From positions 7,444,225-7,508,224 of the forward strand of contig OY987308.1 in assembly GCA_963920635.1 (NCBI GenBank): 64,000 nucleotides of DNA. Reading direction: 5' to 3'. Below, one piece after another: positions 1-32,533 of the stretch. The stretch's first letter is position 1; each line of letters starts with the position of its first letter. Origin of the DNA: Pseudeuparius sepicola (lineage: Eukaryota; Arthropoda; Insecta; Coleoptera; Anthribidae). The position numbers were made by a program, and so were the translations under genes. The notes beneath the pieces are model-generated. The model made no database searches. It was not told the DNA's origin and worked only from the letters and a program-made list of their open reading frames with translations.

Positions 1-262
1 GCCTTTTGTCGTATTTTATTGCCCTTTATTGAGAGTGTTTTTACCATTGAGCGCGTTTTTACCATTGAGCGTGTTTTTACGATTTGCACTAAGAAATTCA
101 GATAATGTGTGCCTGCGGCCGTTTCAGAAAAGTGGTCGGTATAGACAGGTACAATATTATGGGATTTCCTAAATAATATTCGGGGAATTCCGGGGATTCC
201 AAATCGGTCGTTATAGGAGGGTGGTCCTTTTATACAGGTGGTCACTAACAGGGGTTTTACTG
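1..262 (-). mobile_element. End of a pogo/Tc1-mariner-like DNA transposon, cut by the window edge
   Basis: Read on the minus strand, the segment begins at 262 with CAGTAAAACCCCTG directly after a TA dinucleotide (263-264). That is the arrangement seen at ends of pogo/Tigger-type Tc1-mariner elements. Short phrases such as ACGACCG and GACCACC recur, as expected for subterminal binding sites. The other end and any transposase lie outside the window, so the family assignment is an inference from the terminus alone. Confidence 0.35.
31..90. repeat. 18-bp tandem repeat, three units
   Basis: The phrase GAGCGTGTTTTTACCATT repeats with a period of 18 bp at 31, 49 and 67 with one or two changes per unit. 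It lies inside the truncated transposon end and is probably a minisatellite within that element. Confidence 0.7.
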
Positions 263-412
263 TAATACTATTTAAATAAGTTGTATATTATTTCCTGATA
301 ACATAATTTAAATTAGGGATTAAGAATCTCTCGATCAGTGTTGCCAGATGTACGATAATTATCGGTTTTGTACGATAATCGAAGGTTAGGTGCGATGCAC
401 GATATCGCATGT

Positions 413-488
413 ACAGGGTGACCCCCCAAAGAGTACCACCCCCCTTTATTTTCTTAATTTTAAGGTATTTTAACCGGAGAAAAGGCAA
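413..488. mobile_element. Fragment of the foldback element's arm
   Basis: This stretch begins ACAGGGTGACCCCCC and is nearly identical to the part of the neighbouring 490-1917 element that starts at about 629. The fragment stops right where that element begins, so it is a second, solo piece of the same family. Confidence 0.55.
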
Positions 489-489
489 A

Positions 490-1917
490 GTATGTATTTT
501 GTTTTATTAAGGCGAATATTGATATTTCTCGTAACATCACATGTTATAGGTATGTTAGTAAATATTTAGTGGTTTATTTTTAAATTTCATATATTTTGAT
601 CCAAGGTACTTTTTGGCATTATTGTACAGGGTGGCCCCCCAAAAAGTACCACCCTCCTTTATTTTCTTAATTTTAAGGTATTTTAACCGGAGAAAAGGCA
701 CTTCTTTAGCATTTTTTTCCAAATTTTCAGAATCTGCTGTCAAAAAAACAATTGAGCACCAAACAAAAAAGTTACGGACCTAACCACACTTTTTTGAAAG
801 TGAAGCCCAACTTTCTTTTCCATATTCGGATAGGCAACTGAAATCTCTATACGGCGATATATATACAGGGTGTCCCTGGATAGATGTCGGAATAGGTGTA
901 AATAACAAACAAAAAATTTGTTTGATCTTAAAATGTTGGAAATCACTCCTGCATGATCTCATAATGAGACGTAGGCAAAATAAGTTTAATTAATCAATAT
1001 ACAGGGTGATTTGGAGGTAGATTTGAAAATATGCCCAAGAGTAAACTACAATTATTTTCAAAGATATGAAAAACTTTTATAACGAAAAGTTGTTTGGAAT
1101 AAGGAGTTATCCCAGAATCCCAACTTTGGGGCGACTCGGCCTACTTTGATTATTTTCTCTTTTCGTTCTTAGTTATTTTAATATGGTTATTATTGTAATG
1201 CAATCTTAGGAAATAACAATAATTTGTCTTTTTTATTGGATTATTTCCTCTAATATTACATCCGAAGTAAACACATTTCCGGCCATCGCTTTAGTTTTAA
1301 CTGAACAGGTAAAAATAAAAAAAATATCGCACAAATAATCAAAGTAGGCCGAGCCGCCCAAGATTTGGAATTCTGGCATAACTCCTTATTCCAAACAAAT
1401 TTTCCTTATAAAAGTTTTTCATATCTTTGAAAATAATTTTAGTTTACTCTTGGGCATATTTTCAAATCTATCTCCAAAACACCCTGTATATTGATTAATT
1501 CGAGTTATTTTTTACACCGACAACTATCCAGAGATGTATATATATCGCCGTATAGAGATTTCAGTTGCCTATCCAAATATGGAAAAGAAAGTTGGGCTTC
1601 GCTTTCAAAAAAGTGGGGTTAGGTCCGTAACTTTTTTGTTTGATGCTCGATTGTTTTTTTGACGGCAGATTCTGAAAATTTGGAAAAAATGGTAAAGAAG
1701 TGCCTTTTCTCCGGTTAAAATACCTTAAAATTAAGAAAATAAAGGAGGGTGGTACTCTTTGGGGGGCCACCCTGTACAATAATGCCAAAAAGTACCTTGG
1801 ATCAAAATATATGAAATTTAAAAATAAACCACTAAATATTTACTAACATACCTATAACATGTGATGTTACGAGAAATATCAATATTCGCCTTAATAAAAC
1901 AAAATACCTACATACTT
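490..1917. mobile_element. Foldback (long inverted-repeat) element, about 1.4 kb
   Basis: The sequence from about 490 to 1165 reappears as its reverse complement from about 1335 to 1917, leaving an unpaired centre of roughly 170 bp. Matching landmarks include TATGTATTTTGTTTTATTA at the left end and its complement near 1893-1915, the ACAGGGTGGCCCCCC block (left) against GGGGGGCCACCCTGT (right), and CGGCGATATATATACAGGG against its complement near 1540. There is no coding capacity: open frames in the arms are mirror images of each other. The element is non-autonomous, and no superfamily can be assigned from the ends. Confidence 0.75.
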
Positions 1918-2208
1918 TGACTTTGAATGCTAAAAATTTCCTAGTCCTAATCTATATCTACCTAGTTTGGCAAGACTGTACCTAAATTGTATCGGGGAAA
2001 ATTATCTACAAGTTTACTAATTTAAATTTTTTTAAACACAAAACTTCTCTCCAGAAAATAAATATCTGCCATATCCAGCCCCCCGACCCTACGCCACTGA
2101 ATATAAGTTTGTTTTCTCATTGATAAAGTATTATTATTTAAAATAACTTTATATGCCGCCCTCTAATAAAGAAGCACCAATGACGTAAATCGTACGATAA
2201 TCTCTATA

Positions 2209-2773
2209 CAGTGAGCGGCTAAATTATGGAACAAATTCGATAAAATATATACAGGGCGAAAAAATTAAAAATCCTCTGACACGTCAAACTTAATTAATCC
2301 GACACATAAATCTTCTCTGTGACGTCAATAATTTCCCAGATATGACGTCATTGACGTTTTTTCAAATGCCAACCTATACTTCTGATAGCTGATAGTGCCA
2401 TTTGAAAGAGGGGGTCTTTCTGCATATGGCACATTAAATTTAACCGTATCTTACATAAGGATATTTTCGAGATAAATGGCTGCCCTTTCTTGCTTGCTCG
2501 TTTTTTTAACTCGAAAATATCCTTATGTAAGACACCATTAAATTTAATGTGCCATATACAAAAAGACCCCTTCTTTCAAATGGCACCCTCAGAAGTATAG
2601 GTTACCATTTGAAAAAAACGTCAATGACGTCATATCTGGGAAATTAATGATGGTACAAAGAAGATTTATATGTGGGAATGTGCGCATTTAAAGAGTAAGG
2701 TTGACGTGTCCGAGGATTTGTCTTGTCCTGTATATATTTTATCGAGTTTGTTCCATAATTTAGCCGCTCACTG
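2209..2773. mobile_element. Tc1/mariner-type MITE, 565 bp, palindromic
   Basis: The ends are CAGTGAGCGGCTAAATTATG and its exact complement, each flanked by TA (2207-2208 and 2774-2775). This is the target duplication of Tc1/mariner elements. The inverted repeats extend inward for most of the element, for example TTACATAAGGATATTTTCGA near 2452 against its complement near 2510. No transposase is present, so it is non-autonomous. Confidence 0.8.
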
Positions 2774-2776
2774 TAT

Positions 2777-3330
2777 ATAAAAATCAATGTTGATAAGTAT
2801 GCAAGTATGTAAGTATCTTTGTCCTTTATGCGCTCCTAAACCGCCCGTCCGATTGCGATGAAATTTTGGTGGGTTGTTGTGCGCACGCCCGGGAAGGTTT
2901 CTGAATTAGTACGACCATTTTACGATGCGCCATTTGGGCCCTATTTCCGATTTTGGGTTTCCGCGATTTGGCGACGCCACGGAGATCGCCCTGTATACAG
3001 AGATCTCGGCGGCCGAGACGGTCCGAAGACGAGATCGGGAGCGTGGGGCAATGTTGCCAGATCTACCAGCCGAGCGACCGGACCGTGTTACCGGATCTAC
3101 CGATTTCGCGGTAGATCTACGAATTTCAGGCGAATCTGTGCGATCTGCGGCGGCAGCGAACCCGCCGCAACGGTGTCAGACCTTCGAGGAGCCTCGCGCG
3201 AGCCCCATAAAATAAGCGAAGCCGCCGCGCGCCATAGGCAACGATAATTTCGTGGCCTTTCGATAATGATTTGATGTGGGAAATCTGGCAACACTGCTCT
3301 CGATCGGCAATGGCGGCAATCGGCCATTTA
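2777..3330. other. GC-rich repeat-like segment without a recognisable gene
   Basis: A GC-rich block in AT-rich surroundings begins with GCTCCTAAACCGCCCGTCCG and GATGAAATTTTGGTGGG, phrases that resemble the starts of dispersed insect repeats (Helitron or SINE-like). It carries short repeats of GATCTACC / GATCTACG near 3060-3120. Open frames of about 130 codons exist on both strands but have no recognisable domain and look like a by-product of the high GC content. Class unknown. Confidence 0.35.
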
Positions 3331-3529
3331 GTAATACGAGGTTATGTTAGCTATGTGTGATTGGTTTCTTCTGCAGTCGTGTCGTGTTTAGTTAGATACT
3401 TATAAACAAGTGTCGAGTTATAGTGTCATCTTCGTTACAGCTGAGGATAAGGAAACGCATCTTTATACCTTTGTGAAGTGGTAAGTATCTGATAAATTTG
3501 TTATACACTTTCTACAAACTACAGAGTGT

Positions 3530-5224
3530 TTACTTTTATTAGTGTATAAATCCTTAAAATCTTTATTTTTGAAGATAATCGACTGACCTTTTTTTGTTTG
3601 AACGACTTTTTTTATACGCTCGATTTTCAGCAGTACTACTCTAGCGATTTTTTATTCAAAATCTGACACCATAGCGTTAATTAGGATCCGTGAAAGTCCC
3701 CATAATATGCAAAATTTGAATACAGAATATACAGGGCATTCCATTCTACAGGTCTTAAGATGATGATTTCAAGACAGTTGAATATTAATCAAGACCTCTC
3801 AAAGTCCCCAATACTTACGTGAAATTTGCATCAACAATATGCAACGATCTACACGATCCCAAAGTTGAGCAATATGCTGAATTTTTTGAAAGAGTCAAGT
3901 GTGCCATGGTAATATGTAAAAACTGCTGAATGCTTTTTTTGTTTCTGTAAAAATTTCCAAATTGTAGATTATAATTGGTAGCCATTTCTACTCCAAAACA
4001 AGTTCTAATTTATTTTTAGCTTTGACCAAAAAATTAAAAATTTGGTACTCAACCGTGGCAGATACGAAAAAACATCAAGAGACACTTTTTGTTCAGAATC
4101 AATGGCTCTTTTAGAATAAAGTTTATTGTCGCTTGAAAAAAAAAACATGTAAAACGTTTAAAAAGTCCTCATTGTTGATATTTGTAGCCTTTGCGATCTA
4201 GTGACAGTAAAAGTTAATAGAAAAAATCTGTGCACGCCATTGGATTCAGCACCCCTCAAAACGAGCCTGTACGAAATTTTAACAAAAAATTTCAAGTAAT
4301 AAGTTTAGTCGTTTTTGCGATGAAATTTCTATTTTTTTGTTTACTTTTGTTCTGTATAAGTATAAGACCAATATTAACATCACCAAGTTGTTAACGTTTC
4401 ATTTTATTTGTTTTTTTCATGGCTAACTATGAATTTTTGAAAACAAATAAGTATACACCTACTTAATGTGTATTTTTAATTTTTCTTCAAAATCGTTATT
4501 ATTTGAATTTTTTTGGTAACATTTGGTACAGGTCCATTTTGAGGGCTGCTGAATCCAGTGGCGTGCACAGATTTTTTCTAGAAAAATCGCTAATATGATT
4601 AATTACAATTTTGCTGCTATAAACTGGCATAGTAGGCCTTGGATTTATTATAAGAGGCATTTTTGCTCAAAAAATGCAGTTTATCAAGCTCTAAAATTTA
4701 AAATAAAAATCCGGGTCAAATCGCACAATTAATGAACTTTTTGCAGGGTCACCCGAAAATAAATGGGTCACATTGTATGTATATGAATGGTAGGCAGATC
4801 ATTACTACCAAATTAAATTCTCAATATGCCGGACTCCAGGCATCCTTGGCGTAATTTGTGCGGAAAATTCGAAATTCTGTTTTTTTAAGAGTTTTTCTCG
4901 CGAAATTGTGGTTAAAAAATTTGAAAAAAATGCATAACCTTTATTAAAATTAGTGAGGATATTTGTTGAAACGACTGTCAATTTTTGGGTCATACATGGA
5001 ATGCCTTGTAAATTTTGCATATGGGGGTTTTGAGGGGTCCCGATTAACACTATAGTGTCAGATTTTAAATTTAAAAAAAAAACGCTAGAGGGGTACACTG
5101 AAAATCGGGGGTAAGTATAAAAAAAATTCGTAGATGGCCAGAAGACCTTTCAAACAAAAAAAAGTTCAGTCGATTATCTCGAAAAATAAAGATTGTAGGT
5201 TTTTATACACAAATAAAAGTATAT
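3530..5224. mobile_element. Foldback element, about 1.7 kb, with nested older repeats
   Basis: The left arm (about 3530-3755) returns as the reverse complement at about 4965-5224. Matched landmarks are TTTATTTTTGAAGATAATCGAC at the ends and TCTGACACCATAGCGTTAAT against the block near 5050. The same TCTGACACCA phrase occurs in the arms of the 26788-28038 element, so the two belong to one family. Inside, a second inverted pair (about 4220-4300 and 4500-4580, around CCATTGGATTCAGC) and a segment near 4630-4780 similar to the 20823-21209 MITE show nested insertions. No coding sequence was found. Confidence 0.65.
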
Positions 5225-5388
5225 TTTAAATAATAATTTAATTTGAACAGCTACAAAAAACATCGTTTTGTTGAATCGCATCTCAATACATTATTTATAA
5301 TTTGGATGCAGAATAAAGACATTGAAAAAACTACATTTTTAGGGTTACCAGCGTTGTTGTCAAGCGATTGCCACTGGCGCCAAAAATC

Positions 5389-8300
5389 ATGAAAACTCTG
5401 TCGAAGAAAACGGCATATGGCATAGCTGCCAACTTTTTAGTGGAAAATTGTCCTCAGTTTAATTTTCTACAAAACTTGGACGAGTCTCTGATAGTAAAAA
5501 TCGTAGGACAGTTTATGCACACGCAATATGGCTACAAATCAATGGTACGCCGATTAATATATAGAGACAAGGGTTTTGGAAGGTACTACCTCAAATTTGT
5601 AGGAGCTAAAGACATAAAATCAAGCGAGAAGCCCATTTTTAATCAAGACAACCTGAAATTTTGCCTTGAAAGACTTAATATTTGGAATCTTAAATGCTAC
5701 AGATCCGGAGATTCTAAATATGACTCTGTCTGTAAACACTTTTGGATGAAGAATAATATTAAGAATAGAATTAAAATATATTCAATGTGGAATCGATTGA
5801 AGTTACATGACAAGGCAGAAGTAGATTTACCGTGTTCATTAATTACTAAGCAAAGCATCAAAAATGAGTTGACTTTATCCAGCGATGAAGAAAACATTAA
5901 TACGGACGTGGACACGAAGACAAACAGCGGCGCCATTTGTGATGCATACAGTAACGATCTATGTATTCTTTGCATCTGTTGAATGATCATACAAATATTT
6001 TAATGACTCAAATTTTAGATATGCCTTTTGTATTAGACAATAAGGATCATTCGAGCTCCAACTTTCAGGAGGGAAAGGACGCTTTGAATCCACCGAATTT
6101 GCAGAAATTGTCTCCAGCAGATTGGGATTTAAGTCCATTTACTCAGGTCCGCCTTGAAGAAAATAAGCCACAAAGTTTTCCGTGTAGTACCCCAACAACT
6201 GCATTTGAAAAAGAATCGATCCAACAATTGTTACAGTCAATAAATCCGCATGATATAAACGAGAATTTAGAAACTTTTAGTGATAAGGGCATAAATCAAG
6301 AACAAAAAGTAGATACAACTCCCCAAAATTTATATATACCAAAAGAAATATTAAATTTATCAAGCCCATCAACATCCGCAGGTTTACTACCACCAAATGC
6401 TCGAAATATATATCCAGCTTCAATTTCACATAAATATGGCGAATGCAATAATTTAGAAGGCTCATTTGTGATCGATCATAGAGCATTTGATAAAATTTTT
6501 GAAAACGGACATTTAATTTCTAAAAACTACCCTTACCTTTTAAGAAACCGAATTTTTAAATATGTCAACAATACTTGCATTTTTGTATTTAAATATGTTA
6601 AATACTTGAAAAAATCAGACGAAATACATGTGTTTTCAAAATGTAAACACATAAGTTGTAAAAAATTCAAATGTATTTTACATATAAATACAAGAAATGT
6701 AAATGTGTTCAGTACCTCTTTCCATTTTAGCCATAAAATCTCACAAACTTCCCAAGTAAGGGGTGTCGAGAGGAATATTTTTAAAAAGTCGCTATTACAT
6801 AGGAAGGCTTTTGATTTTAAAAAAGAAAAATTATTGATGGCGAATAAAAAAGTTATTTACCATGCTAAGCATTTACAAGGCATAAAATCTGACTCGACAA
6901 TCAGAAAAATTAAATCTGAAGCTTCTTCTCAACTTGATAGAAATAAAGATGACATAATTGATCTTATTAGGATGCAAGCAGAACATCCCGATTACATAAG
7001 AGAAATAAGCATACCGTTTAGTGTCAAGGTATATAGTGTAGAGCAACTGAAAGTATTAAAGGCGGAAAGTAAGGACTGTTTACCAGTAATATATTTTGAC
7101 GCTACAGGGAATATTGTGAGAAAACCTAATAGCAATTGTAAAAGAATTTATTTTTATACAGCAGTTATAAAAGTTAAAATATCCAAACGAATATTTCCGA
7201 TTTTCTCAATGGTATCTGCCATGCACGATTCGAATGCTATATTCAAGCTTTTTCATGATTTCAGGTATTTTTGCGAGTTTTATAATTTTTGGCCTGCATT
7301 TTCAACAGTTGTAACCGACTTTTCGTTCGCAAATTTACACGCAATTTCCAAAGCTTTAAATCGAATGACTCTTCCTGAATATATTCAAAGATGCTACAAT
7401 GCAATACATTTTCCATCAGATTTTGCACAACCAGAGATATTAATTGTTTTATGCTGTTCCCATTTTATGAAAATGGTTTCTAAAGACGTCGACAATATAT
7501 CGAGAAATGATGAGCAACGGCTTTATTTTAAAGATTTAGTTGCACTAGCAATATTAATAGACAATATCGAAAGTTTAAATATTTTTATGCAAAACGTAGC
7601 GGTTTTACTTTCCTCTAAATTTCAAAGTCAGCATGTAACCGACGCTATTAAAACTTTATCAAATATTACACTTAATATGAATTATAAAAATGTTTCAGAT
7701 GAGTTGGGCATAAAAGAACAAGATCCAATTGATTTTAAAGCGGAACAAGGGATCTTTAAGTCCAGCCCATTTTTTAAGAAATATTGTACAATATTAAATG
7801 CAGTATGGCACTTGACTGAAAACGAATCAGGATTGCCCAATATATTCTTCAATGAAGACTTCTTTTCGATCATATTAGACAAATATATTCCTTTATTCCC
7901 TTTGTGGTCATCTGTGATGTTTAAGGAAAAGAAGACATTGAGCAACTCAGTTGTGGAAAATTACTTCGGTCAACTAAAGGGTATTACATTAGGCGGAGAA
8001 AGAAATCTAAAATGTTCAAGATTTTTAAGGCTGTTAAGAAGAGATGTTTTGGCCTTAAAAGTTGAAGTGGATTTCAAGATTCCCAAAAGTAGACTAGCAC
8101 AGGAAAATACAGATGAAAAATGTTCACAAGAATTCTGGAATAAAAAATGTAAAAAAATTGGCACACATTTTGAAGGAAAATATTTACAAACTGCTAGTGG
8201 TGTTTTATGTAACAAGCCCAATTTACACGAAAGATCGCTTCCTGAAATTTGTGTGGCTTATCTACATAAAAACGCTCTTTCGGAAAAAGAAAAACAGGAT

Positions 8301-9782
8301 GTAGAAGCGAACACCAGACAGCAAAACTTATGCGAGAGATGGAAAGCCGAACGACGTATACGCATAACGGCCTCGAATTTCGGGAAAATATGTAAATTAA
8401 AAAATGAGATAAGCTATAAAGGAATAGTTCAGAGTATCGTAGGTCGCGGAATCGTACGCACACCAGCCATGGAGTATGGCATAATAAACGAAAATGTTGC
8501 TCGTGATTTATATTCTAAAATAAAAAAAGTTACCGTTCAAGTATCAGGATTAGTTGTCCATAAAACTTATCCCTTTATAGCTGCATCTCCAGATGGTCTT
8601 GTCGGAGAAGATGGAGTTCTGGAAATTAAATGCCCATACAAAATTAAAGATGAGAATCCCAATCAATGTGCCATAGATTTTTTAAATAAAAAGGGAGAAC
8701 TCAGTACAACACACAATTATTATTACCAAATACAGGGTTTATTGGAAGTTACGGATAGATGCTGGTGTGATTTAATAATTTATTCCAGAAAAGGCATCAA
8801 AGTAATAAGGATCAATAGAAACAAGAATTTTTGGAATATGAATGAAGGAAAATTAACCTCTTTTTATTTTTTTCATTTATTGCCAGAGCTCGTGTTACCA
8901 CACTGCAAATTAACAACAGAAGAAAAAAAGTGGAGAACTGAAAAAGACTTGTGTTTCTTCAAAAACGGATTGGTCAGTGACGTAAACTATTATAAAGAAC
9001 TGAAAAGCAAGAGATTATATACAGTGAGTGTACTGGAAGAAATAGAATATTCAATAAAAGAATTGCTAATCGATGACTTTTTATCATTAAATGAAAAACA
9101 ATTGTTGTCAAGTTTTGTCGTCGACCATTCCTTATTTTTATTGAACAAAAACAATACATTTCAACTTTTTTCTGTAGAAAAGAGTTCATTAATATTTGGA
9201 GATATTCAATTACACGAAAATTTTTTGGCCAGTATAATCCTTGAACATGAAAAAGTCGCAATGCCCATTGAAAGAAATGCCCACTACCTTTTGGCAATAG
9301 CTAATTTTAAGGATAAATCATTCACATTTATAGATTCCATAGGTAGAGAAAAAGATACTGTGAATTATTACATGGAGAAATTTCTCACTTTTTTAAAATT
9401 AATAAATGCAGACTTCAGTGGTTGGACACTGTTAACCCAGAACCACATTTTGCAAGAAGATGCATTCAACTGTGGAGTCTTATTAATATATTATTTTCGA
9501 CAGATATTAAGAAACGAAAGTTTAACTATACCCGTGGATCTTAATAAATATAGATTGGAAATAAAACATATGCTTTTAGAAGATTCGTGTGATGTGTCAT
9601 TCAGATGTTTTTTTTGTTCACAATCTTTACCATTAGAAAACACAAACCGTTATTTTCAATGTAATATTTGCAAAAGAGGTACCCACATAAAATGTTTACT
9701 AGACAATAAAGATATAAGGAACGGATTAACAATAAATGAAAAAACTTTGAATGGTTTATGTGATCTATGTAGGATTAATTAG
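5389..9782 (+). CDS. Multidomain transposase: DDE core + YqaJ nuclease + Ulp1 protease + zinc domain
   Basis: Two exons (5389-5950 and 6019-9782) joined by a 68-bp GT-AG phase-1 intron give about 1441 residues without a break. The N-terminal ~190 residues are unrecognised. A DDE-like core follows, with D548 (FDATG), D621 (VTDFS) and E834 (VVENYFGQ) as candidate catalytic residues. Residues ~990-1130 look like a YqaJ/lambda-exonuclease PD-(D/E)XK nuclease with D1046 (SPDGL) and E1056-x-K1058 (EIKCPY). Residues ~1270-1345 look like a C48/Ulp1 cysteine protease with H1276, D1293 and C1339 (NCG). The tail holds paired Cys residues plus a THIKC motif, like a PHD or RING finger. The mix recalls the MULE/Zisupton (KDZ) group, where Ulp1 domains are known; this superfamily placement is an inference. 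Everything is in frame, so the element may be young or the gene domesticated. The first ATG is at 5389. Confidence 0.75.
5951..6018 (+). other. Predicted 68-bp intron of the multidomain transposase gene
   Basis: The donor GTAACG follows position 5950 and the acceptor ATTTTAG ends at 6018. The upstream frame leaves one base and the downstream frame needs exactly two, so splicing joins two long open frames that otherwise overlap out of phase. The upstream frame would stop at 5982 without splicing. Confidence 0.7.
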
Positions 9783-10104
9783 TTTCGATGTTTGTTCAAT
9801 AGGTATTTTTAGTTTTAGTAGATTTAGTTTCATCCCTGTTGAGTATAATATTTTATATTTTTGTTCCTTTTTTGGACATATTGGATTTTATAAAACCAAG
9901 ACTAAGCTTTTCGTGATTTGTTACTAATGGATTATATATTTTTTGTTCTTTCTACTTTTAGTTTTGTTTTGTTTATATCTACACGTTAACTACATGTGCA
10001 TATTATGTACACAAACGTTTTTATATTTGTATATAAGAGAATATGAGAAAACACTGATTTTGTTAATATGTCTATGAAGTATTTTTATTACCTTCCTAAA
10101 TTTA
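9783..10104. other. AT-rich spacer, nothing recognised
   Basis: This is the 3' flank of the multidomain transposase gene up to the start of the satellite. It is T-rich on the plus strand with no open frame of note. No terminal inverted repeat could be matched to the upstream side of the gene by eye. Confidence 0.5.
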
Positions 10105-13100
10105 GAGTTCGCCCTTAGAACGACCCTTCGGACGGACTGCAAGAGATTTTCGCGTGCGGCCCTTTTCTCCACTCTAAAGCAGTAACTCACCCTGAAAATA
10201 TCAACCTGATATTCGAACGCCTAGTGTGTTTGCCGAATTTTTTAATTTTCCGGAGTTCGCCCTTAGAACGACCCTTCGGATGGACTGTAAGATATTTTCG
10301 CGTGCGGCACTTTTCTCCACTCTAAAGGAGTAACTCACCCTGAAAATATCAACCTGATATTCGAACGCCTAGTGTATTTGCCGAATTTTTTAAATTTCCG
10401 AAGTTCGCCCTTAGAACGACCCTTCGAACGGACTGCAAGAGATTTTCGCGTGCGGCCCTTTTCTCCACTCTAAAGCAGTAACTCACCCTGAAAATATCAA
10501 CCTGATATTCGAACGCCTAGTGTGTTTGCCGAATTTTTTATTTTTCCGGAGTTCGCCCTTAGAACGACCCTTCGGATGGACTGTAAGATATTTTCGCGTG
10601 CGGCACTTTTCTCCACTCTAAAGGAGTAACTCACCCTGAAAATATCAACCTGATATTCGAACGCCTAGTGTATTTGCCGAATTTTTTAAATTTCCGAAGT
10701 TCGCCCTTAGAACGACCCTTCGAACGGACTGCAAGAGATTTTCGCGTGCGGCCCTTTTCTCCACTCTAAAGCAGTAACTCACCCTGAAAATATCAACCTG
10801 ATATTCGAACGCCTAGTGTGTTTGCCGAATTTTTTATTTTTCCGGAGTTCGCCCTTAGAACGACCCTTCGGATGGACTGTAAGATATTTTCGCGTGCGGC
10901 ACTTTTCTCCACTCTAAAGGAGTCGCTCACCCTGAAAATATCAACCTGATATTCTGACGCCTAATGTGTTTGCAGCATTTTTTAAATTTCCCGAGTTCGC
11001 CCTTAGAACGACCCTTCGGACGGACTGCAAGAGATTTTCGCGTGCGGCCCTTTTCTCCACTCTAAAGCAGTAACTCACCCTGAAAATATCAACCTGATAT
11101 TCGAACGCCTAGTGTGTTTGCCGAATTTTTTATTTTTCCGGAGTTCGCCCTTAGAACGACCCTTCGGATGGACTGTAAGATATTTTCGCGTGCGGCACTT
11201 TTCTCCACTCTAAAGGAGTAACTCACCCTGAAAATATCAACCTGATATTCGAACGCCTAGTGTATTTGCCGAATTTTTTAAATTTCCGAAGTTCGCCCTT
11301 AGAACGACCCTTCGAACGGACTGTAAGAGGTTTTCGCGTGCGGCCCCTTTCTCCACTCTAAAGGAGTAACTCACCCTGAAAATATCAACCTGATATTCGA
11401 ACGCCTAGTGTATTTGCCGAATTTTTTAAATTTCCGAAGTTCGCCCTTAGAACGACCCTTCGAACGGACTGTAAGAGGTTTTCGCGTGCGGCCCCTTTCT
11501 CCACTCTAAAGGAGTAACTCACCCTGAAAATATCAGCTTGATATTCGAACGCCTAGTGTGTTTGCCGAATTATTTTAAATTTCCGGAGTTCTCCCTTAGA
11601 ACGACCCTTCAGACGGACTGCAAGAGATTTTCGCGTGCGGCCCTTTTCTCCACTCTAAAGCAGTAACTCACCCTGAAAATATCAACCTGATATTCGAACG
11701 CCTAGTGTGTTTGCCGAATTTTTTATTTTTCCGGAGTTCGCCCTTAGAACGACCCTTCGGATGGACTGTAAGATATTTTCGCGTGCGGCACTTTTCTCCA
11801 CTCTAAAGGAGTCGCTCACCCTGAAAATATCAACCTGATATTCTGACGCCTAATGTGTTTGCAGCATTTTTTAAATTTCCCGAGTTCGCCCTTAGAACGA
11901 CCCTTCGGACGGACTGCAAGAGATTTTCGCGTGCGGCCCTTTTCTCCACTCTAAAGCAGTAACTCACCCTGAAAATATCAACCTGATATTCGAACGCCTA
12001 GTGTGTTTGCCGAATTTTTTATTTTTCCGGAGTTCGCCCTTAGAACGACCCTTCGGATGGACTGTAAGATATTTTCGCGTGCGGCACTTTTCTCCACTCT
12101 AAAGGAGTCGCTCACCCTGAAAATATCAACCTGATATTCTGACGCCTAATGTGTTTGCAGCATTTTTTAAATTTCCCGAGTTCGCCCTTAGAACGACCCT
12201 TCGGACGGACTGCAAGAGATTTTCGCGTGCGGCCCTTTTCTCCACTCTAAAGCAGTAACTCACCCTGAAAATATCAACCTGATATTCGAACGCCTAGTGT
12301 GTTTGCCGAATTTTTTATTTTTCCGGAGTTCGCCCTTAGAACGACCCTTCGGATGGACTGTAAGATATTTTCGCGTGCGGCACTTTTCTCCACTCTAAAG
12401 GAGTAACTCACCCTGAAAATATCAACCTGATATTCGAACGCCTAGTGTATTTGCCGAATTTTTTAAATTTCCGAAGTTCGCCCTTAGAACGACCCTTCGA
12501 ACGGACTGTAAGAGGTTTTCGCGTGCGGCCCCTTTCTCCACTCTAAAGGAGTAACTCACCCTGAAAATATCAGCTTGATATTCGAACGCCTAGTGTGTTT
12601 GCCGAATTTTTTATTTTTCCGGAGTTCGCCCTTAGAACGACCCTTCGGATGGACTGTAAGATATTTTCGCGTGCGGCACTTTTCTCCACTCTAAAGGAGT
12701 AACTCACCCTGAAAATATCAACCTGATATTCGAACGCCTAGTGTATTTGCCGAATTTCGCCCTTAGAACGACCCTTCGAACGGACTGTAAGAGGTTTTCG
12801 CGTGCGGCCCCTTTCTCCACTCTAAAGGAGTAACTCACCCTGAAAATATCAACCTGATATTCGAACGCCTAGTGTATTTGCCGAATTTTTTAAATTTCCG
12901 AAGTTCGCCCTTAGAACGACCCTTCGAACGGACTGTAAGAGGTTTTCGCGTGCGGCCCCTTTCTCCACTCTAAAGGAGTAACTCACCCTGAAAATATCAG
13001 CTTGATATTCGAACGCCTAGTGTGTTTGCCGAATTATTTTAAATTTCCGGAGTTCTCCCTTAGAACGACCCTTCAGACGGACTGCAAGAGATTTTCGCGT

Positions 13101-15235
13101 GCGGCCCTTTTCTCCACTCTAAAGCAGTAACTCACCCTGAAAATATCAACCTGATATTCGAACGCCTAGTGTGTTTGCCGAATTTTTTATTTTTCCGGAG
13201 TTCGCCCTTAGAACGACCCTTCGGATGGACTGTAAGATATTTTCGCGTGCGGCACTTTTCTCCACTCTAAAGGAGTAACTCACCCTGAAAATATCAACCT
13301 GATATTCGAACGCCTAGTGTGTTTGCCGAATTTTTTATTTTTCCGGAGTTCGCCCTTAGAACGACCCTTCGGATGGACTGTAAGATATTTTCGCGTGCGG
13401 CACTTTTCTCCACTCTAAAGGAGTCGCTCACCCTGAAAATATCAACCTGATATTCTGACGCCTAATGTGTTTGCAGCATTTTTTAAATTTCCCGAGTTCG
13501 CCCTTAGAACGACCCTTCGGACGGACTGCAAGAGATTTTCGCGTGCGGCCCTTTTCTCCACTCTAAAGCAGTAACTCACCCTGAAAATATCAACCTGATA
13601 TTCGAACGCCTAGTGTGTTTGCCGAATTTTTTATTTTTCCGGAGTTCGCCCTTAGAACGACCCTTCGGATGGACTGTAAGATATTTTCGCGTGCGGCACT
13701 TTTTTCCACTCTAAAGGAGTAACTCACCCTGAAAATATCAACCTGATATTCGAACGCCTAGTGTATTTGCCGAATTTTTTAAATTTCCGAAGTTCGCCCT
13801 TAGAACGACCCTTCGAACGGACTGTAAGAGGTTTTCGCGTGCGGCCCCTTTCTCCACTCTAAAGGAGTAACTCACCCTGAAAATATCAACCTGATATTCG
13901 AACGCCTAGTGTATTTGCCGAATTTTTTAAATTTCCGAAGTTCGCCCTTAGAACGACCCTTCGAACGGACTGTAAGAGGTTTTCGCGTGCGGCCCCTTTC
14001 TCCACTCTAAAGGAGTAACTCACCCTGAAAATATCAGCTTGATATTCGAACGCCTAGTGTGTTTGCCGAATTATTTTAAATTTCCGGAGTTCTCCCTTAG
14101 AACGACCCTTCAGACGGACTGCAAGAGATTTTCGCGTGCGGCCCTTTTCTCCACTCTAAAGCAGTAACTCACCCTGAAAATATCAACCTGATATTCGAAC
14201 GCCTAGTGTGTTTGCCGAATTTTTTATTTTTCCGGAGTTCGCCCTTAGAACGACCCTTCGGATGGACTGTAAGATATTTTCGCGTGCGGCACTTTTCTCC
14301 ACTCTAAAGGAGTCGCTCACCCTGAAAATATCAACCTGATATTCTGACGCCTAATGTGTTTGCAGCATTTTTTAAATTTCCCGAGTTCGCCCTTAGAACG
14401 ACCCTTCGGACGGACTGCAAGAGATTTTCGCGTGCGGCCCTTTTCTCCACTCTAAAGCAGTAACTCACCCTGAAAATATCAACCTGATATTCGAACGCCT
14501 AGTGTGTTTGCCGAATTTTTTATTTTTCCGGAGTTCGCCCTTAGAACGACCCTTCGGATGGACTGTAAGATATTTTCGCGTGCGGCACTTTTCTCCACTC
14601 TAAAGGAGTCGCTCACCCTGAAAATATCAACCTGATATTCTGACGCCTAATGTGTTTGCAGCATTTTTTAAATTTCCCGAGTTCGCCCTTAGAACGACCC
14701 TTCGGACGGACTGCAAGAGATTTTCGCGTGCGGCCCTTTTCTCCACTCTAAAGCAGTAACTCACCCTGAAAATATCAACCTGATATTCGAACGCCTAGTG
14801 TGTTTGCCGAATTTTTTATTTTTCCGGAGTTCGCCCTTAGAACGACCCTTCGGATGGACTGTAAGATATTTTCGCGTGCGGCACTTTTCTCCACTCTAAA
14901 GGAGTAACTCACCCTGAAAATATCAACCTGATATTCGAACGCCTAGTGTATTTGCCGAATTTTTTAAATTTCCGAAGTTCGCCCTTAGAACGACCCTTCG
15001 AACGGACTGTAAGAGGTTTTCGCGTGCGGCCCCTTTCTCCACTCTAAAGGAGTAACTCACCCTGAAAATATCAGCTTGATATTCGAACGCCTAGTGTGTT
15101 TGCCGAATTATTTTAAATTTCCGGAGTTCTCCCTTAGAACGACCCTTCAGACGGACTGCAAGAGATTTTCGCGTGCGGCCCTTTTCTCCACTCTAAAGCA
15201 GTAACTCACCCTGAAAATATCAACCTGATATTCGA
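10105..15235. repeat. Satellite array of 148-bp monomers, about 35 copies, with higher-order structure
   Basis: Monomer starts (GAGTTCGCCCTTAGAACGACC) fall at 10105, 10253, 10401, 10549, 10697 and so on, exactly 148 bp apart. One unit near 12758 is shortened by 17 bp. Monomers fall into classes: A (GGACGGACTGCAAGAGATT), B (GGATGGACTGTAAGATATT), B' (as B but with GAGTCGCTC and CTGACGCCTAATG), C (GAACGGACTGTAAGAGGTT) and D (CAGACGGACTGCAAG). The series D-B'-A-B'-A-B-C occurs at about 11585 and again at about 14085, a higher-order unit of roughly 1.04 kb. The array has no coding capacity. Its length is close to nucleosomal DNA length, as in many centromeric or heterochromatic satellites. Confidence 0.95.
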
Positions 15236-15484
15236 ACGGCTAGTATGATTTCAGGATTTTTGAAATTTTTAACGTCCGCTGTTAATCTGTATAGTGTTGA
15301 GGTTAAATAATCGGGGCTTCCACATTATTTTGGGCAAACAATTTTATTGGTAGTTCGACAAAAATAGAGTGGCCGCTAAAATTGGGCGGCTAGTTTCAAA
15401 AAATGGCTGCCGAAGTTTGGCTGCCAACTTCACACAAAAACAGTTGGCTGCTGGGAGTTTTTGGCTGCCAGAAATTGGCTGCTA

Positions 15485-16641
<1,157 letters not shown>

Positions 16642-19694: not shown

Positions 19695-20820
19695 ACCGAA
19701 TAAAAAGTGAGTGATAACTATTTTCATTTATTTTTATTATAAACTTTGACATATAAATATTTTTTTGCAGAAAAAGAAATAATAAAAAAGTATGCTAATA
19801 AAAAGTGGAAATTAGAAAAAAACATAAAGCAAGCAATAAAAGCAGCCGACCTTCTGCAGCCCCAATCAAAATAATGATAATCAATAATTATATAAATAAA
19901 AAATAAATTACATTCTATTCTATATTATATTCTGTCTTATCATTTCAACTTCTTTCTCTTTCTATATATACTATTTCGAAATAAATTAAAGTTTTTCGCG
20001 AAAGCGATTTTCCATTAATTTCACCAAATCGGAAGAATAAATTAAATGGTCCATTTTTAAGTGAGAACCTTTAAATTTAATTTCATTAGTAACATAAAAA
20101 AACGACTCATTTTGGAGCCCAACCTCAACCACTTTTGCATTTCGATCGAAAATGAAACTGAAGACAATCTGAAATTTTCAAAACGACAAGTTCCGCGCCA
20201 AATGCGCGTTCGACCATCACAAACGCCGGCGTTCATCTCTTGGAAAATGAAATATCGAAAATACAATCCCATTATTTCAAAGTCACTGATAATTTTCCTA
20301 AAAAACCATGATTTCTAAATCGAGAACTTATCGACAGAAGGCACATAACAACATACATTAAAATGAGAACGGGACACTACCTCTCGCCAAAAAACATGAA
20401 TAGAATTGGTGTATAAAAGATTCCACGATATGTGAGTATGAAGAAAAAGGAAATCTATGGCCTATCATTTCCGAATGTCCATTATACTACTATCACCGTC
20501 GATGGAGGAAGGAGCTATTACCCACATTTTAACCTATACAATCAGTTGGCAACTAACATTACATAGAAGACCCCTACTGATGTGAAATAGAGAATCAGAA
20601 ACATGAAAAAAGTACATAAATTCCTAAATCACAATGAGCCGAAATTATAATTAGATTTCTATTCCGATATGGACGTGGCGTAGAAATCAGACAATTCCTA
20701 CTGAAAACTAAAAGGAAACACGAAACTACATAACAACGGCGTAATCTCTGGATTTTTCCATTTCAAAATCCGTTACTCGTTTTTATTTTTTTATTAACAT
20801 AAAGTCATAATTTTCAAACA
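19695..20820. other. AT-rich stretch without a recognised gene
   Basis: An 85-codon open frame at 20061-20318 has no recognisable domain and overlaps an equally long minus-strand frame, so it is not called. Nothing else stands out before the MITE at 20823. Confidence 0.4.
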
Positions 20821-20822
20821 TA

Positions 20823-21209
20823 CAGTGTGACCCATTTGTTTTGGGGTCAGTCTGTAAAAAGTGTATCAATCGTGCGATTTGGCTGATTTTTTTTTTAAAT
20901 TGTAGAGCTCGATGAACTGCACATTTTGAACAAAAATTGCCTGGTTCGCATAAAATCCAAAGCCTACTATGACCGTTTTTATGAGCAAAATTTTAAGAAA
21001 CCATATTAGCGTTTTTTTTTAAAAAAATCTGTGTGCGCCAATGGATTGAGCACCCCTCGAAATGGGTATGTACAAAATTTCATCAAAATATTTCAAGTAA
21101 TAACGATTTTGTAGAAAAATTAAAAATGCAGCCAAGGTACGTCTTTATTTTCAAAAATTCAAAGTTGGCCATGGAAAATAATTGACCCCAAAACAAATGG
21201 GTCACCCTG
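20823..21209. mobile_element. Tc1/mariner-type MITE, 387 bp
   Basis: The ends CAGTGTGACCCATTTGTTTT and its near-exact complement (AAAACAAATGGGTCACCCTG) are each flanked by TA (20821-20822 and 21210-21211). Internal sequence resembles the inside of the 3530-5224 element, so this is one copy of a dispersed family. No coding sequence is present. Confidence 0.8.
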
Positions 21210-24548: not shown

Positions 24549-24795
24549 GGATCTAGTACGGGTAATTTATTAAAAAACTTGAATTATTTTAACCGCAATT
24601 ATAATATTGCTATATAACTTTATACATAATTTCAGGCGATTTTGTTGCAGAGAGAATTAGCCCTTCAACATCTAAAACAATTAATACGGAACCAGGATCT
24701 AGTACGGGTAATTTATTAAAAAACTTGAATTATTTTAACCGCAATTATATTACTATATAACTTTATAAATAATTTCAGGCGATTTTGTTGCAGAT
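24549..24795 (+). repeat. Tandem duplication of an exon-intron unit in polB
   Basis: A 146-bp unit starting GGATCTAGTACGGGTAATTT occurs at 24549 and again at 24695, with the second copy running to about 24795. Each unit carries the end of an exon, a short intron and the start of the next exon (GCGATTTTGTTGCAGA). The duplication therefore multiplied a small phase-1 exon without shifting the frame. Confidence 0.8.
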
Positions 24796-26787
24796 AGTAA
24801 ATATTGCTGTAAATGTAAAATAAATGTGGACAAGAAACAATGGGTAGCTCACGTACGAACCAATAACCACAAAGTAAAATGTTTTACTTTCTTGGAGGAG
24901 GGTATTGAAATTTTGCGAAGTGCCTTCAAATATCGAATTGTTACTTACAAAGTGTCACCGAAAAATTACACTATCGATATTAAAACATTTCAAGAGGAGA
25001 TTATGGATAAAGTGTTAACTTTACTCAAGGAAGAACAGCTGAGGCATACAGCTATTAAAATCAAGTTTGAATTATATGGTATTTATTATTCGAAACCACT
25101 AGATCTTATGGATGTTAAGTCTTTCAATACCAAATTCGAAGTAATTGTGGATTCTACGGACATTGAAGCTTTATATGGACACTTGTTTGTGGTACTTGAG
25201 AAGAAATCGGATGAATTTGCTGAACGTGACTCTGGTAAAAATAAATATAAACCTTGTATAATTATTTTCATTTGTTGTCTAATTATTTTCATTTTCGATA
25301 TAATTATTTTGATTTAGTTTTTCTACTATTTTTAGGATGGATCTTGATACAGATTCTTCACCTAGAAATTAACGTCAATAAATATAATCCTCTACGAATT
25401 TCATCATATATTCCCCTACCTAAAGAAATCCAGAAAAAGAGAGCTGTAATCAACATTCTGAACAATGATGAGTGCTGTTTTGGATGGAGTTTAATGGCTG
25501 CTGTGCACCAACCGCTAGCAAATGCAGAGAGGACATCATCATACCCTTGTTTTAAGGGCAGGTTTGATTTTAGCGGTATAAACTTTCCTGTCTCAATAGA
25601 AGATGTGTCAAAATTTGAGAGTCAAAACAATATCTCAATAAACGTTTTCGGATGTGAACCTTATTATAAGGAAAACAAAACAATGTATAAAATTGTCGGT
25701 CCCTTGTACTACACTAAACAAAAGAAAAATCTGCATATAAATTTGTTATTGATTGAGGACGGTACAGGTAATCAACACTATTGCTATATAAAAGATTTAG
25801 GTAGATTAGTTTCTTCTCAAATATCCAAACATAAATGTAAAAAATATCTATGCGACGGATGTTTACAGAATTTCCCTTCTGCTGAAAAATTGAAAAGGCA
25901 TATGAAATTTGACTGCAACTTTGAAAGAATTGATTTTCCATCAGATAATTTAATTACAGATAAATTTGATAATATGGTTCCCGAAAATATTTTAAAATTT
26001 GAAAATATTCAAAAACAATACAAAGTTCCCTTCGTAATTTACGCTGATTTTGAATGCATTTTAAAACCAGTAAATCGTGATAATCAAGCTTTAGACCCAC
26101 TTTCTAGTTATACAGTCAAAACAGCTGAACATATACCCCATTCTTTCGCTTACTTTATAAAATGTTCATTTAATGATAATTTATCAAAATTAAAAATTTA
26201 TAGAGGAGAGAATTGTGCTCAAACATTTATAGATTGGATAGAAAATGACGTAAAAAGAATTTATAATAATTATTTAAGTAAGAACCTTCCCATGATACTT
26301 TTATATTAATTCAACAAAAACAGTATGAAGACTCTACGAATTGTTACATTTGTGGAAAAGTCTTCCAAGATAGTCCAAATTTAAAAAAATGTAAGGACCA
26401 TAATCATCTTAATGGTGCTTTTAGAGGAGCGGCGCATTCCATTTGTAATTTACATTTTCAACCACCAACATTTGTTCCGATTATTTTACATAATTTAAAA
26501 AATTACGACTCGCATTTGTTTATTAAGTCTTTATGCTTCAATAAAGAGAAAATTAATGTGATAGGTCATACAAAAGAAAAATAGATATCCTTTAGTAAAC
26601 AAATTTTGATGGAAGAAAATGTTGGACTAAAGTTGAACTTCATAGACTCTTTTCAATTTCTACCAGCATCTCTTGAATCTATGGCGGATATATTAGAAGA
26701 CAACCAATGTATAGAAATTCGTAAGTGTTTTCCAAATGATTTACAATTTCATTATATTAGACAAAAAGGTGTATTTCCATATTCATA

Positions 26788-28038
26788 CAGTGTGTGCCGT
26801 TTTTCATGTTAACACCCCTGAAAATCTAAGTAGGCTGAAGGAATTGAACGGGGCAATTTTTTTATAGATATGTCCCTGAAAGGTCATCATTTTCGTAGTA
26901 TTGGTTTGGCATTGCCGCGAAAGCCTGGCCTACTGCGATTTTATAAAGGGGTGCGTTTTTCGAAAAACCATATTAGGCATTTTTTTATTTAAAATCTGAC
27001 ACCACAGCGTTAATCAGGACACACCGAAACTCCCATATACCAAATTTGAACAAAAAATATACAGGGAGTTCCATTCTGCAGGGTGTCAAAGTTGAGCAAA
27101 ATAGGAATTTTAAAGGCATCTGGCGAGTCAAGTGTGCCATGGAATTACCTCAAAACAGTTGAATGGTCAATAGGACCACTGAAAGTGTTGCTGTGCAAGG
27201 ATTCAATACAAAAATATACAGGGTATTTTTCTCTGAGCCATCTCAAAATTCTGAAATTTTATGAAACCTATACGGATCAAGAGTGCTCTGGAATCATTGA
27301 AAAAAGATCGATAAACACAAAAGTAATGCCAACAATGCCATACAAAATGCCAACTAACAAATAAAAACAATTTAAAATAATGGACTTTTTCAACAAAGTC
27401 ACTGTCTAAGATGATACATTTTCTGTGCGTTTCCGGTTGTGGCACACCAGCCACCTTAACTGATTTGGACTTACTAACTGGCAGGCTTCTGTATTTTTTA
27501 GATTAGTTCATTTATAGTGTGTGGAGCAGTTTTGATATACTCGATTTTTCTCCTGTATAAAGTTCCAAAAATTCAGTATTTTGAGATGGCACGAATAAGA
27601 ACACTCTGTATATTTTGTATTGGACCTTTGCTCACCAACACCTTGAGTGGTCCTATTGACCATTCAACTGTTTTGAGGTAATTCCATGGCAGACTTGACT
27701 CGCCAGATGCCTTTAAAATTCCTATTTTGCTCAACTTTGACACCCTGCAGAATGGAACTCCCTGTATATTTTTTGTTCAAATTTGGTATTGGGGGTTTCG
27801 GTGTGTCCTGATTAACGCTGTGGTGTCAGATTTTAAATAAAAAAATGCCTAATATGGTTTTTCGAAAAACGCACCCTTTTAAAAAATCGCAGTAGGCCAG
27901 GCTTTCGCGGCAATGCCAAACCAATACTACGAAAATGATGACCTTTCAGGGACATATCTATAAAAAAATTACCCCGTTCAATTCCTTCAGCCTACTTAGA
28001 TTTTCAGGGGTGTTAACATGAAAAAACGGGACACACAG
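26788..28038. mobile_element. Foldback element (1251 bp) inserted in polB
   Basis: The terminal repeats CAGTGTGTGCCG and, inverted, CTGTGTGTCCCG are flanked by TA (26786-26787 and 28039-28040), a Tc1/mariner-type target. Arms of roughly 460 bp are near-complements, for example AACACCCCTGAAAATCTAAG near 26810 and its complement near 27995. The polB reading frame on the two sides is in phase once the element and one TA are ignored, so the insertion site is exact. It shares the TCTGACACCA block with the 3530-5224 element. No coding sequence is present. Confidence 0.9.
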
Positions 28039-29917
28039 TATGTTGATTCCTATGATAAGTTGTTGGAAGAAGCTTTTCCCGCAATTGATAAGTTTTATAA
28101 TGAGTTAAAAGATGAAAATATCTCACAAGATGATTATAAACGAGGTAAAGAGGTATGGGACATATTTAACTGCAAAAATTTAGGTGATTATTCAGATTGC
28201 TATCTCCGCTCTGACGTCATGATTTTATGTGACGTGTTTGAAAGCTTTAGAAGTAATTCAATTAGAACCTACCAGCTAGATCCGGCACAGTATCTCACTT
28301 CTCCGAGTTTATCTTGCGACGCCATGTTAAAAATGACAGATATAAAATTAGAATTATTGATAGAACCTGATATGATTCATTTTTTCAAAAAGGCCATAAG
28401 GGGCGGAGTGAGCACGAGAAAATCCGAAGCGAACAATATTTTTTTACAGAATTTTAATCCATCAAAAGAAAACAAATTTATAATGTATTTAGATGCGACA
28501 AACTTATATGGTTTTGCTATGAGAGAATATCTGCCCGAGAAAGATTTTGTTTGGCTTTCCCAAGATGAAATTGAACAAATCGATATTTTTTCACTTTCCG
28601 ATACATCACCTATAGGTTATGTTTTCGAAGTAGATTTACAATATCCTGAAAAACTTCACAATTTGCATAACGAGCTCCCCTTTTGTCCTGAAAACTTTAT
28701 ACCCCCAAATTCCAAATGTTCGAAACTAATACCAAATTTAAATAATAAGTATAATTATATTATACACTATTTATATTTGCAGCAATGTCTAAAATTCGGT
28801 CTCAAATTAACCAAAATTCATAGAGCTATTAAATTTAGTCAATCACCATGGTTAAGAAAATATATTGATAATAATACAAATATAAGAAATGCTGCAAAAT
28901 CTAAGTTCGAAAAAATCAAGTAAAATTGTTAACAAATAGTATTTATGGAAAAACCATGGAAAATGTGGACAAAAGAGTTGATATTCGCCTCTTGTCTCAT
29001 TGGGAGCCTAACAAAAATAGTAATTGTGCAGAAAAACTAATAGCAAAACCAGTTTAAAGATTTATCTATATTTTCTGAAAATTTAATCGCTGTTCAATTA
29101 CAAAAAGTATGTATAATGTATAATAAACCAATTTATGTTGGTTTCACCATTCTAGATCTTTCTAAAATGGTGATGTATAATTTCTACTACAACTACCTTA
29201 AACCAAAGTATGGAGACAATGTTGCTCTATTGTATATGGACACCGACTCTTTTATTTTAGAAGTAACAACAGAAAACTTTTACAATGATATAAGAGAAAA
29301 TTTAGATATTTTCGATACCTCGAATTATGCTCTAAACAATGTTTATAATATTCCTCAGAACTTATCAGTTGTGGGTAAATTTAAGGATGAAATGGCTGGC
29401 GAACCAATAGAATCTTTTTATGGTACTGCAGCTAAATCATATTGTGTAAAAACGAAAGATGATATTCTGAAAAAAGCTAAAGGTATTAAGAAAAATACGG
29501 TTAGAAAACAACTGGATTTTTCCCATTACAAGGAAGTTGTCGAAAAAAATTCTAAAGTGTATTGTAACATGTATATTTTTAAATCGCATTTACACAATAT
29601 GTTTACTGAAGTCATAAATAAGTTAGCACTATCATCTGATGATGATAAACGGTATCATATCCCTAGTACTCTAAAAACTCTAGCATGGGGGCATAGGGAT
29701 ATTTCTGATTATGAAAACCCTAAAGTTGAAAAAATAATGGATATGTTAATTAAAAACGGTTGTGATTTAACTCTTGAAGACCCCGATACTAATTTAGATA
29801 ACTTGATAAAAATTGGTGAGTTTTTAGAAGACTACCATGAACCAAAACCCAAGAAAAGTAAAAAATAGCAATTCTTATATAAAGGTAGGATCAGCTTATC
29901 GCTTAGTTGATTTCAAC

Positions 29918-30307
29918 ATGGCAAACCGAATACAGTTCGATGGTGAGCCTGTAAGTCAGTCTAGTAATTTGAAAAATTTCGAAGAGAGATTGTTAACTTT
30001 CAAAAACTGGAAAGGAAAAGTAAATCCGATAGATTTAGCCGGAGCTGGTTTTCATTTTACAGGATGCTTAAATTCATGTCAATGTGTTTATTGTGATGTG
30101 GAAATATACAAGTGGGAAATGGAAGATTCTCCATTGATGGAACATTTCAAATATAATAAAGCTTGTGATTTTATACAAGCACTTCGTTTAGCCAGCATGT
30201 ATAAGAGTAATACAAACCCTGCACCCAGTATCACTAATTTTTCTACTATTTGTGTATGTTTTATTATACTGATTGTATTTTTTGCTCTATTTAAGGGATT
30301 TTATTAA
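29918..30307 (+). CDS. BIR-domain (IAP-like) membrane protein of the Polinton
   Basis: About 129 residues from the ATG at 29918; an in-frame upstream ATG at 29837 overlaps the end of polB and is also possible. One BIR domain spans residues ~15-80, with the hallmark GAGFHFTG, a CxxC pair (CQCVYC), W, an ExxxxxxH segment and a final Cys (CDF) that would bind zinc. A hydrophobic segment (CVCFIILIVFFALF) near the C-terminus predicts a membrane anchor. BIR proteins of baculoviruses and cells block caspases; an anti-apoptotic role here is an inference. There is no RING domain. The gene is intact while its neighbours are broken. It lies in the rightward block straight after polB. Confidence 0.8.
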   Translation: MANRIQFDGEPVSQSSNLKNFEERLLTFKNWKGKVNPIDLAGAGFHFTGCLNSCQCVYCDVEIYKWEMEDSPLMEHFKYNKACDFIQALRLASMYKSNTNPAPSITNFSTICVCFIILIVFFALFKGFY

Positions 30308-30484
30308 TATTGTGTTTGTATATTTTTAAATGTACCACTTTATACTTTTATATACTACTACTTTATACTACTACTATATTAATAAAATATTTAACCCGTG
30401 AGTTGTTTTATTTCTGACATAAAACCACCTCTAAATCGTTTTAGGATTTAGTTGATCCTAAGCTTTCAAGTGATAAAGTTGAAA

Positions 30485-30886: not shown

Positions 30887-30976
30887 CTTTACAAGAAAAG
30901 TGGTGGAGGAGATAGGTATATATTCACCCCGTATTTATGTGAGTATTATTAGTGTAAAGACTGTGATTGTGTTAAA

Positions 30977-32349: not shown

Positions 32350-32533
32350 ATTTTTAAATTAGAAAATTCCTTAAAAACTTCTTTTTTCTTTTGATAATAG
32401 TCAATATAACTTTTTATTTTTTTTTAAATCTCTGAAATTGTTCAATCCTCTCTTGAAGGAGCATTGTAAACTAATGGAAAATTTTAGATAACTAACTTTT
32501 TATTATTAAATTTGACACATGCGCACTTCAAAT

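Follow-up and report, generated by a model that had tools for sequence, protein, structure and literature searches.

The 64,000-nucleotide stretch of the Pseudeuparius sepicola genome analysed here (the window) carries what is probably an autonomous, recently mobile DNA transposon of the Rehavkus type, related to Mutator, that is 19.3 kb long and has inverted arms composed of capped arrays of a 148-bp satellite. The element comprises 19,338 bp; it starts 3840 bp to the left of window base 1 (G000 C10:7440384) and ends at position 15497. The parts that lie in the window are as follows, with relatives of the gene product designated by P numbers.

1–15497, plus strand: in-window part of the transposon, with ends taken from the comparison of eight copies
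5389–5950, plus strand: exon 1 of the transposase gene, homologous to the N termini of P0001, P0002, and P0005
5951–6018, plus strand: predicted intron of 68 bp (GT..AG), in a region across which relatives are continuous as one frame
6019–9782, plus strand: exon 2 including the stop codon, giving with exon 1 a product of 1441 residues
6435–6782, plus strand: segment before the DDE core with conserved C-x-H, C, and H residues (conserved alignment columns; no Pfam match)
6783–8117, plus strand: DDE domain (RNase-H fold) with D548 (7098–7100), D621 (7317–7319), and E834 (7956–7958) and a CxxH motif between
8340–8888, plus strand: YqaJ/lambda-type exonuclease domain with D1046, E1056, K1058, and Q1091, from profile and model
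8973–9578, plus strand: Ulp1/SENP-type cysteine protease domain with H1276, D1293, Q1333, and C1339
9579–9779, plus strand: C-terminal PHD-like zinc finger (Pfam PHD 0.024, below cut-off)
10105–15268, plus strand: right-arm array of the 148-bp satellite, a tandem repeat of 35 copies
15269–15497, plus strand: right terminal cap, an inverted copy of the left cap, with the terminus ACCGGTGTGAAGTTAGCAGCC read inwards
15498–15506, plus strand: right copy of the 9-bp target duplication CAGACATTA, inside a hAT-like reading frame

Removal of the 68-bp GT..AG intron from 5389–9782 gives the 1441-residue product, and exon 2 is contained in an open frame of 1275 codons. P0001, which is one frame of 1459 residues, aligned with residues 2–1441 of the spliced product, 39% of positions being identical, and this alignment argues for the predicted intron and for the unity of the gene. 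An earlier reading of the same DNA (the sequence-only reading) had proposed one intact multidomain transposase with an exonuclease, a Ulp1-type protease, and a zinc finger. This proved right, seven of the eight copies encoding 1441 residues, and the one clean intron that it described is likewise upheld, as a prediction, by the single-frame P0001. One case that it had named against itself was that the domains are separate genes joined by assembly. Such a fusion, whether by assembly error or by chance read-through, is highly improbable because the same exon-2 frame occurs in the seven other genomic copies, six of which give the full 1441-residue product, and because full-length relatives in a single frame exist elsewhere, even though the exact splice is a prediction and several in-frame splice options are available; for exon 2, an assembly join was rejected.

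The genome search for copies covered 769 Mb in 16 contigs, with 37 of 592 candidates scored, and its counts are lower bounds. At least seven other copies of exon 2 were found, at a reported identity of 100%, one of them split into two pieces. Each of these seven shows 3–6 substitutions in total relative to the window copy over a core of 6804 + 3150 bp, and two of them have core gaps (23, 13, and 1 bases); the silent differences at 5433 and 7391 are peculiar to the window copy. The copies that encode 1441 residues, the window's included, show at most one amino acid change, and in the remaining copy, at C11:36.18M, 13 bp are deleted at the glutamate of the DDE triad. Total copy lengths range from 14.7 to 21.6 kb, the 14.7-kb copy being the one with the broken gene.

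The identity among copies extends beyond the gene through upstream sequence and the 148-bp satellite and stops at 15497; the match of one copy stretched to 15501 by chance, its true end being at the same terminal motif. On the left side, the element leaves the window via a second, inverted array of the satellite (23.8 inverted copies) that ends ~61 bp before window base 1. Both ends of the element read ACCGGTGTGAAGTTAGCAGCC inwards, and the satellite-free cap is ~0.25 kb in length. In five of the eight copies, the two caps match without a difference over 236 bp. In the other three, an ungapped count gave 74–128 mismatches, which we read as length changes because the first monomer of one arm starts at 237, 256, or 307 rather than at 253. 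An exact 9-bp target duplication was found in all eight copies and in none of 56 mismatched left-right pairs, and the joined flanks of the window copy (the empty site) give 231 open codons across the site, a 231-residue hAT-like frame. The sequence-only reading was thus correct as to the intact gene but missed the 148-bp satellite and ~19 kb of the same element around the gene; the other copies, terminal repeats, and target duplications that it had proposed to look for are present, as inverted arms and exact 9-bp duplications in all eight copies.

Pieces of a hAT-like transposase ORF are located at 15507–16641 and in L029 before 6160, the transposon having inserted in that frame. Nested palindromic repeats, common to the copies, occupy 481–1924, 2205–2777, 3531–5221, and 4218–4580 in the 5′ part of the element, and the last of these has a relative at 20818–21178. 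The palindromes at 3531–5221 and 4218–4580 were considered as TIRs of the element and rejected as nested repeats within it, and element boundaries close to the gene were rejected because the identity among copies extends far beyond it. Elsewhere in the window, genes like those of Polinton/Maverick elements are found at 24769–34000 and 42215–54981, including a double-jelly-roll capsid-like ORF (33143–33733, minus strand, 8.5e-35), a weak ATPase match (44166–44603, plus strand), and polymerase- and integrase-like ORFs recognised by eye only. Between the Polinton-like genes are a Gypsy-type LTR ORF of 1358 residues with reverse transcriptase, RNase H, and integrase (37112–41188, minus strand) and a second LTR-type ORF set, identified by eye (45379–51888, plus strand). 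An ORF with a FLYWCH zinc finger (59700–60395, 9.8e-17) and one with DUF7869 (34930–36873, 6.3e-6) are probably further transposon genes.

The terminal 30-mer has 173 occurrences in the genome at up to 3 mismatches, and the reversed control has none. Seven further elements were hand-picked from the first 100 listed places of this 30-mer, and each is flanked by an exact 9-bp duplication, in the 26.0-kb element only with respect to the outer of two left ends. Three of the seven hold other gene lineages (18.5, 22.3, and 26.0 kb), and the other four (3.1–13.9 kb) gave no match in the gene search with its 37 scored candidates. In the 26.0-kb element, the two left ends, at C1:80424695 and C1:80424866, are 171 bp apart, and the duplication fits the outer one only. 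At four places (G000 C2:16.75M, C1:43.25M, C8:20.53M, and C7:41.92M), related transposase genes occur as head-to-head pairs ~0.8–4.9 kb apart; these are perhaps palindromic elements with a gene inside each arm.

The sequence-only reading had taken the protein for the best candidate in the window for an undescribed system, a view that does not survive comparison with the hallmarks published for Rehavkus, as given in the available excerpts of PMC6446971 and PMC10218199. The assignment, a probable one, is made by these published features. The excerpt of PMC6446971 attributes to Rehavkus 9-bp duplications, a PHD finger, and a terminal minisatellite, tabulates its TIR length as 26–400 bp, and presents it as scarcely described outside Repbase; that of PMC10218199 gives Rehavkus-1_TC a length of 9.5 kb and inverted termini that contain a satellite of 164-bp units, mostly five and eight monomers. 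The present family shares with Rehavkus-1_TC and Rehavkus-1_HR, as described in these excerpts, the 9-bp duplications (8/8 copies and 7/7 picked elements) and the possession of one gene, the PHD-type finger being above cut-off in some relatives and below it in the window copy, and it shares with Rehavkus-1_TC a satellite in inverted termini, with 148-bp arrays in both arms here and 164-bp units there. Rehavkus hosts are arthropods or annelids, and the named relatives of the window protein come from beetles. The arms, at 1987–6360 bp, lie outside the tabulated TIR range, into which the cap alone would fit, but because the termini of Rehavkus-1_TC carry satellite arrays, we take the tabulated length as descriptive rather than defining. 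In contrast with Rehavkus-1_TC as excerpted, intact copies are 18–22 kb long rather than 9.5 kb and the arms hold 12–41 monomers rather than mostly 5 and 8. The fused YqaJ domain also goes unmentioned in the available portions of the published Rehavkus descriptions, and Tribolium P0035 is without it. Canonical arthropod Mutator-like elements, according to the excerpt of PMC13359780, likewise have a DDE core with CxxH, 9-bp duplications, and terminal inverted repeats; that survey, in which Rehavkus serves as outgroup, covers elements of 1.4–10.0 kb whose TIRs reach at most 1193 bp. By description, the foldback element Tetris of Drosophila virilis is similar in its long inverted arms, its tandem repeats, and its role as a transposon source of satellite (PMC4079207, in excerpt).

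All three enzyme folds (DDE, exonuclease, and Ulp1) were recovered in structure models, that of the C-terminal half having been built from only 7 sequences with a pLDDT of 66. The DDE domain has the CxxH motif and an RNase-H fold nearest to IS256-type transposases, with low TM-scores in the Foldseek alignments (0.23–0.31 for the best). The sequence-only reading had suggested searches with the KDZ, MULE, YqaJ, and Peptidase_C48 profiles. At E up to 10, neither KDZ nor MULE nor Transposase_mut is among the Pfam matches of the window copy, and a MULE or Transposase_mut match was seen in 1 of 28 aligned proteins (E 0.068); a KDZ or canonical MULE identity was therefore rejected, and in lacking a MULE match the window copy differs from canonical Mutator-like elements. 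The YqaJ profile matched the window copy with 66 bits against a cut-off of 22. The acidic residues, lysine, and glutamine of this domain we take to be equivalent to the active site of lambda exonuclease, as is consistent with the alignment. In fold, active-site residues, and profile match, the domain resembles lambda exonuclease, LHK-Exo, and RecE-like phage exonucleases, but it is one domain of a eukaryotic transposase, and no partner annealing protein was recognised in the element. Peptidase_C48 gave no match in the window copy, where the Ulp1 domain is instead apparent from the SENP-type fold of the model and the H-D-Q-C residues of the alignment; these are features of Ulp1/SENP SUMO proteases, and the corresponding activity is predicted. 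The C-terminal finger scored 15.1 bits with the PHD profile (cut-off 24), and the segment at 6435–6782 may be a zinc-binding DNA-binding region.

Three protein searches gave at least 7, at least 24, and 34 matches, the named relatives being the beetles Ceutorhynchus assimilis, Phaedon cochleariae, Psylliodes chrysocephalus, and Tribolium castaneum. When 25 relatives were scanned one by one with Pfam, YqaJ was above cut-off in 16 and Peptidase_C48 in 9. In a set of 20 YqaJ-bearing sequences, every member has the E, E, K, and Q residues of the exonuclease, and 19 have the D (G in P0001). In the same set, the Ulp1 histidine is found in 20/20 and the Q and C in 19/19 (P0004 ends early), whereas the aspartate is retained in 16/20 and replaced by asparagine in four, a departure from Ulp1/SENP SUMO proteases. 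Mean pairwise identity over the 20 sequences is 0.45 for YqaJ, 0.43 for DDE, 0.35 for Ulp1, and 0.22 for the N-terminal linker; conservation is thus as strict in the exonuclease as in the transposase core. A PHD stretch occurs between DDE and YqaJ in 12 of the 16 YqaJ-bearing relatives scanned, above cut-off in 6; the window copy (8118–8340) and P0003 are without one.

The slot that follows DDE and precedes the catalytic Ulp1 domain appears from the domain comparisons to be modular, holding YqaJ, a degenerate Ulp1-like domain, or a ubiquitin hydrolase according to lineage. (i) P0034, P0035 (Tribolium castaneum), P0036, and P0038 have DDE and no YqaJ match. In the first three, the intervening region, taken as a three-sequence profile, was matched by hhalign to Ulp1 (probability 98.8%, E 6e-17) and not to YqaJ (0.5%); this second Ulp1-like domain is without catalytic residues in the alignment. 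(ii) P0038 has the order DDE-Ulp1-PHD. (iii) P0040 (1873 residues) combines DDE, PHD, a ubiquitin carboxyl-terminal hydrolase (UCH, 5.3e-17), and Ulp1 (1.5e-12) in one protein. A 35-row tree rejected a single origin of YqaJ (p 1e-36), but it counted as YqaJ-less nine short or truncated proteins of uncertain state (three of which, P0006, P0007, and P0033, were scanned and had no YqaJ), and it was therefore given no weight. In a 24-row DDE tree that dropped 11 rows (the nine short or truncated ones, P0039, and P0040), one YqaJ clade was not rejected (p 0.092), and the best free tree requires two changes. On the trees of 24 and 35 rows, gain and loss of YqaJ are indistinguishable.

The 16 arms of the eight copies are 1987–6360 bp long with 12–41 monomers each. 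They were cut into 433 monomers, which comprise 51 distinct sequences; with up to 3 mismatches allowed, these fall into 20 types. Thirteen of the 16 arms open with a common outer block of five monomer types, and the innermost monomers are constant on each side (AIJK on the left and HAL on the right, 8/8 in both cases). In the arm middles, monomers are duplicated and deleted in blocks among copies. The turnover of the arms is thus faster than substitution in the core: the arms are block-shuffled while the cores differ by 3–6 substitutions in ~10 kb.

The target duplications and the DDE core together indicate cut-and-paste insertion with a 9-bp stagger, a reaction that is well established for the DDE enzyme class. 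The DDE domain would excise and insert the element, the Ulp1 domain may strip SUMO or a related modifier from the transposase itself or from chromatin or repair proteins of the host, and the zinc fingers would bind DNA or chromatin. The coupling of excision with end resection and the control of host SUMO signalling, both suggested in the sequence-only reading, are likewise hypothetical. The role that we prefer for the exonuclease is that it would degrade one of the strands at the DNA ends that transposition generates. Our hypothesis connecting the exonuclease with arm rearrangement, which we put forward tentatively, is that resection would expose the satellite repeats of the arms and that annealing or templated repair would then give the block duplications and deletions. 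Against this step, Tribolium has satellite arms, yet the relative found there, a possible but uncertain counterpart of the Rehavkus-1_TC protein, is without YqaJ. We consider unlikely the fuller scheme in which the element is a self-contained generator of satellite DNA, its exonuclease resecting the arms at each move so that they are rebuilt, lengthened, and spread, and its protease detaching the complex of the transposase from chromatin or repair factors that carry SUMO.

There is a reasonable case, somewhat short of probable, that the exonuclease trims the non-transferred strand or flaps during cut-and-paste and that the arms change by host slippage or unequal exchange. In many genomes, satellite arrays change spontaneously. 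The direct role gains from the fusion to the transposase and from conservation equal to that of DDE but is set against the YqaJ-less relatives with DDE (P0034, P0035, P0036, and P0038; putatively mobile), the existence of which implies that the exonuclease is not required for the basic reaction in every lineage. Change of the arms by the host accords with the satellite arms of Tribolium Rehavkus, as excerpted from PMC10218199, together with the YqaJ-less relative found there. It is doubtful that the two additional enzymes, exonuclease and protease, stand outside the transposition chemistry and serve to counter host control, for example SUMO-dependent silencing or extrachromosomal DNA competitors: the exchange of YqaJ, degenerate Ulp1-like, and ubiquitin hydrolase domains in one slot is as expected of accessory modules, but the strict conservation of YqaJ over long divergence is less typical of fast-evolving counter-defence modules, and any host target is hypothetical.

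In the open-access literature (the architecture may be described in the Repbase Reports), no match was found for the combination of YqaJ, transposase, and Ulp1, for a transposon with lambda exonuclease, PHD finger, and Ulp1, for a Mutator-like transposase with a SUMO protease in insects, or for Rehavkus together with YqaJ, Ulp1, or Peptidase C48. The link between YqaJ and transposases is not wholly new, since, in the available excerpts, YqaJ is a term by which transposon-related families are filtered in weevils (PMC13289751) and fusion with transposases is stated to be possible for YqaJ and alkaline exonuclease genes (PMC7826175). New here are an exonuclease as conserved as the DDE core, the exchange of modules among relatives, and the block rearrangement of arms between near-identical copies. 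The analysis thus provides what is probably a recently active Rehavkus-type family whose genes are intact and whose ends and insertion sites are defined exactly, and it suggests that such transposases swap whole enzyme modules (exonuclease, degenerate protease, and ubiquitin hydrolase) at one place. Because the arms have been rearranged while the rest of the element is nearly unchanged, how transposons found satellite DNA becomes a testable question.
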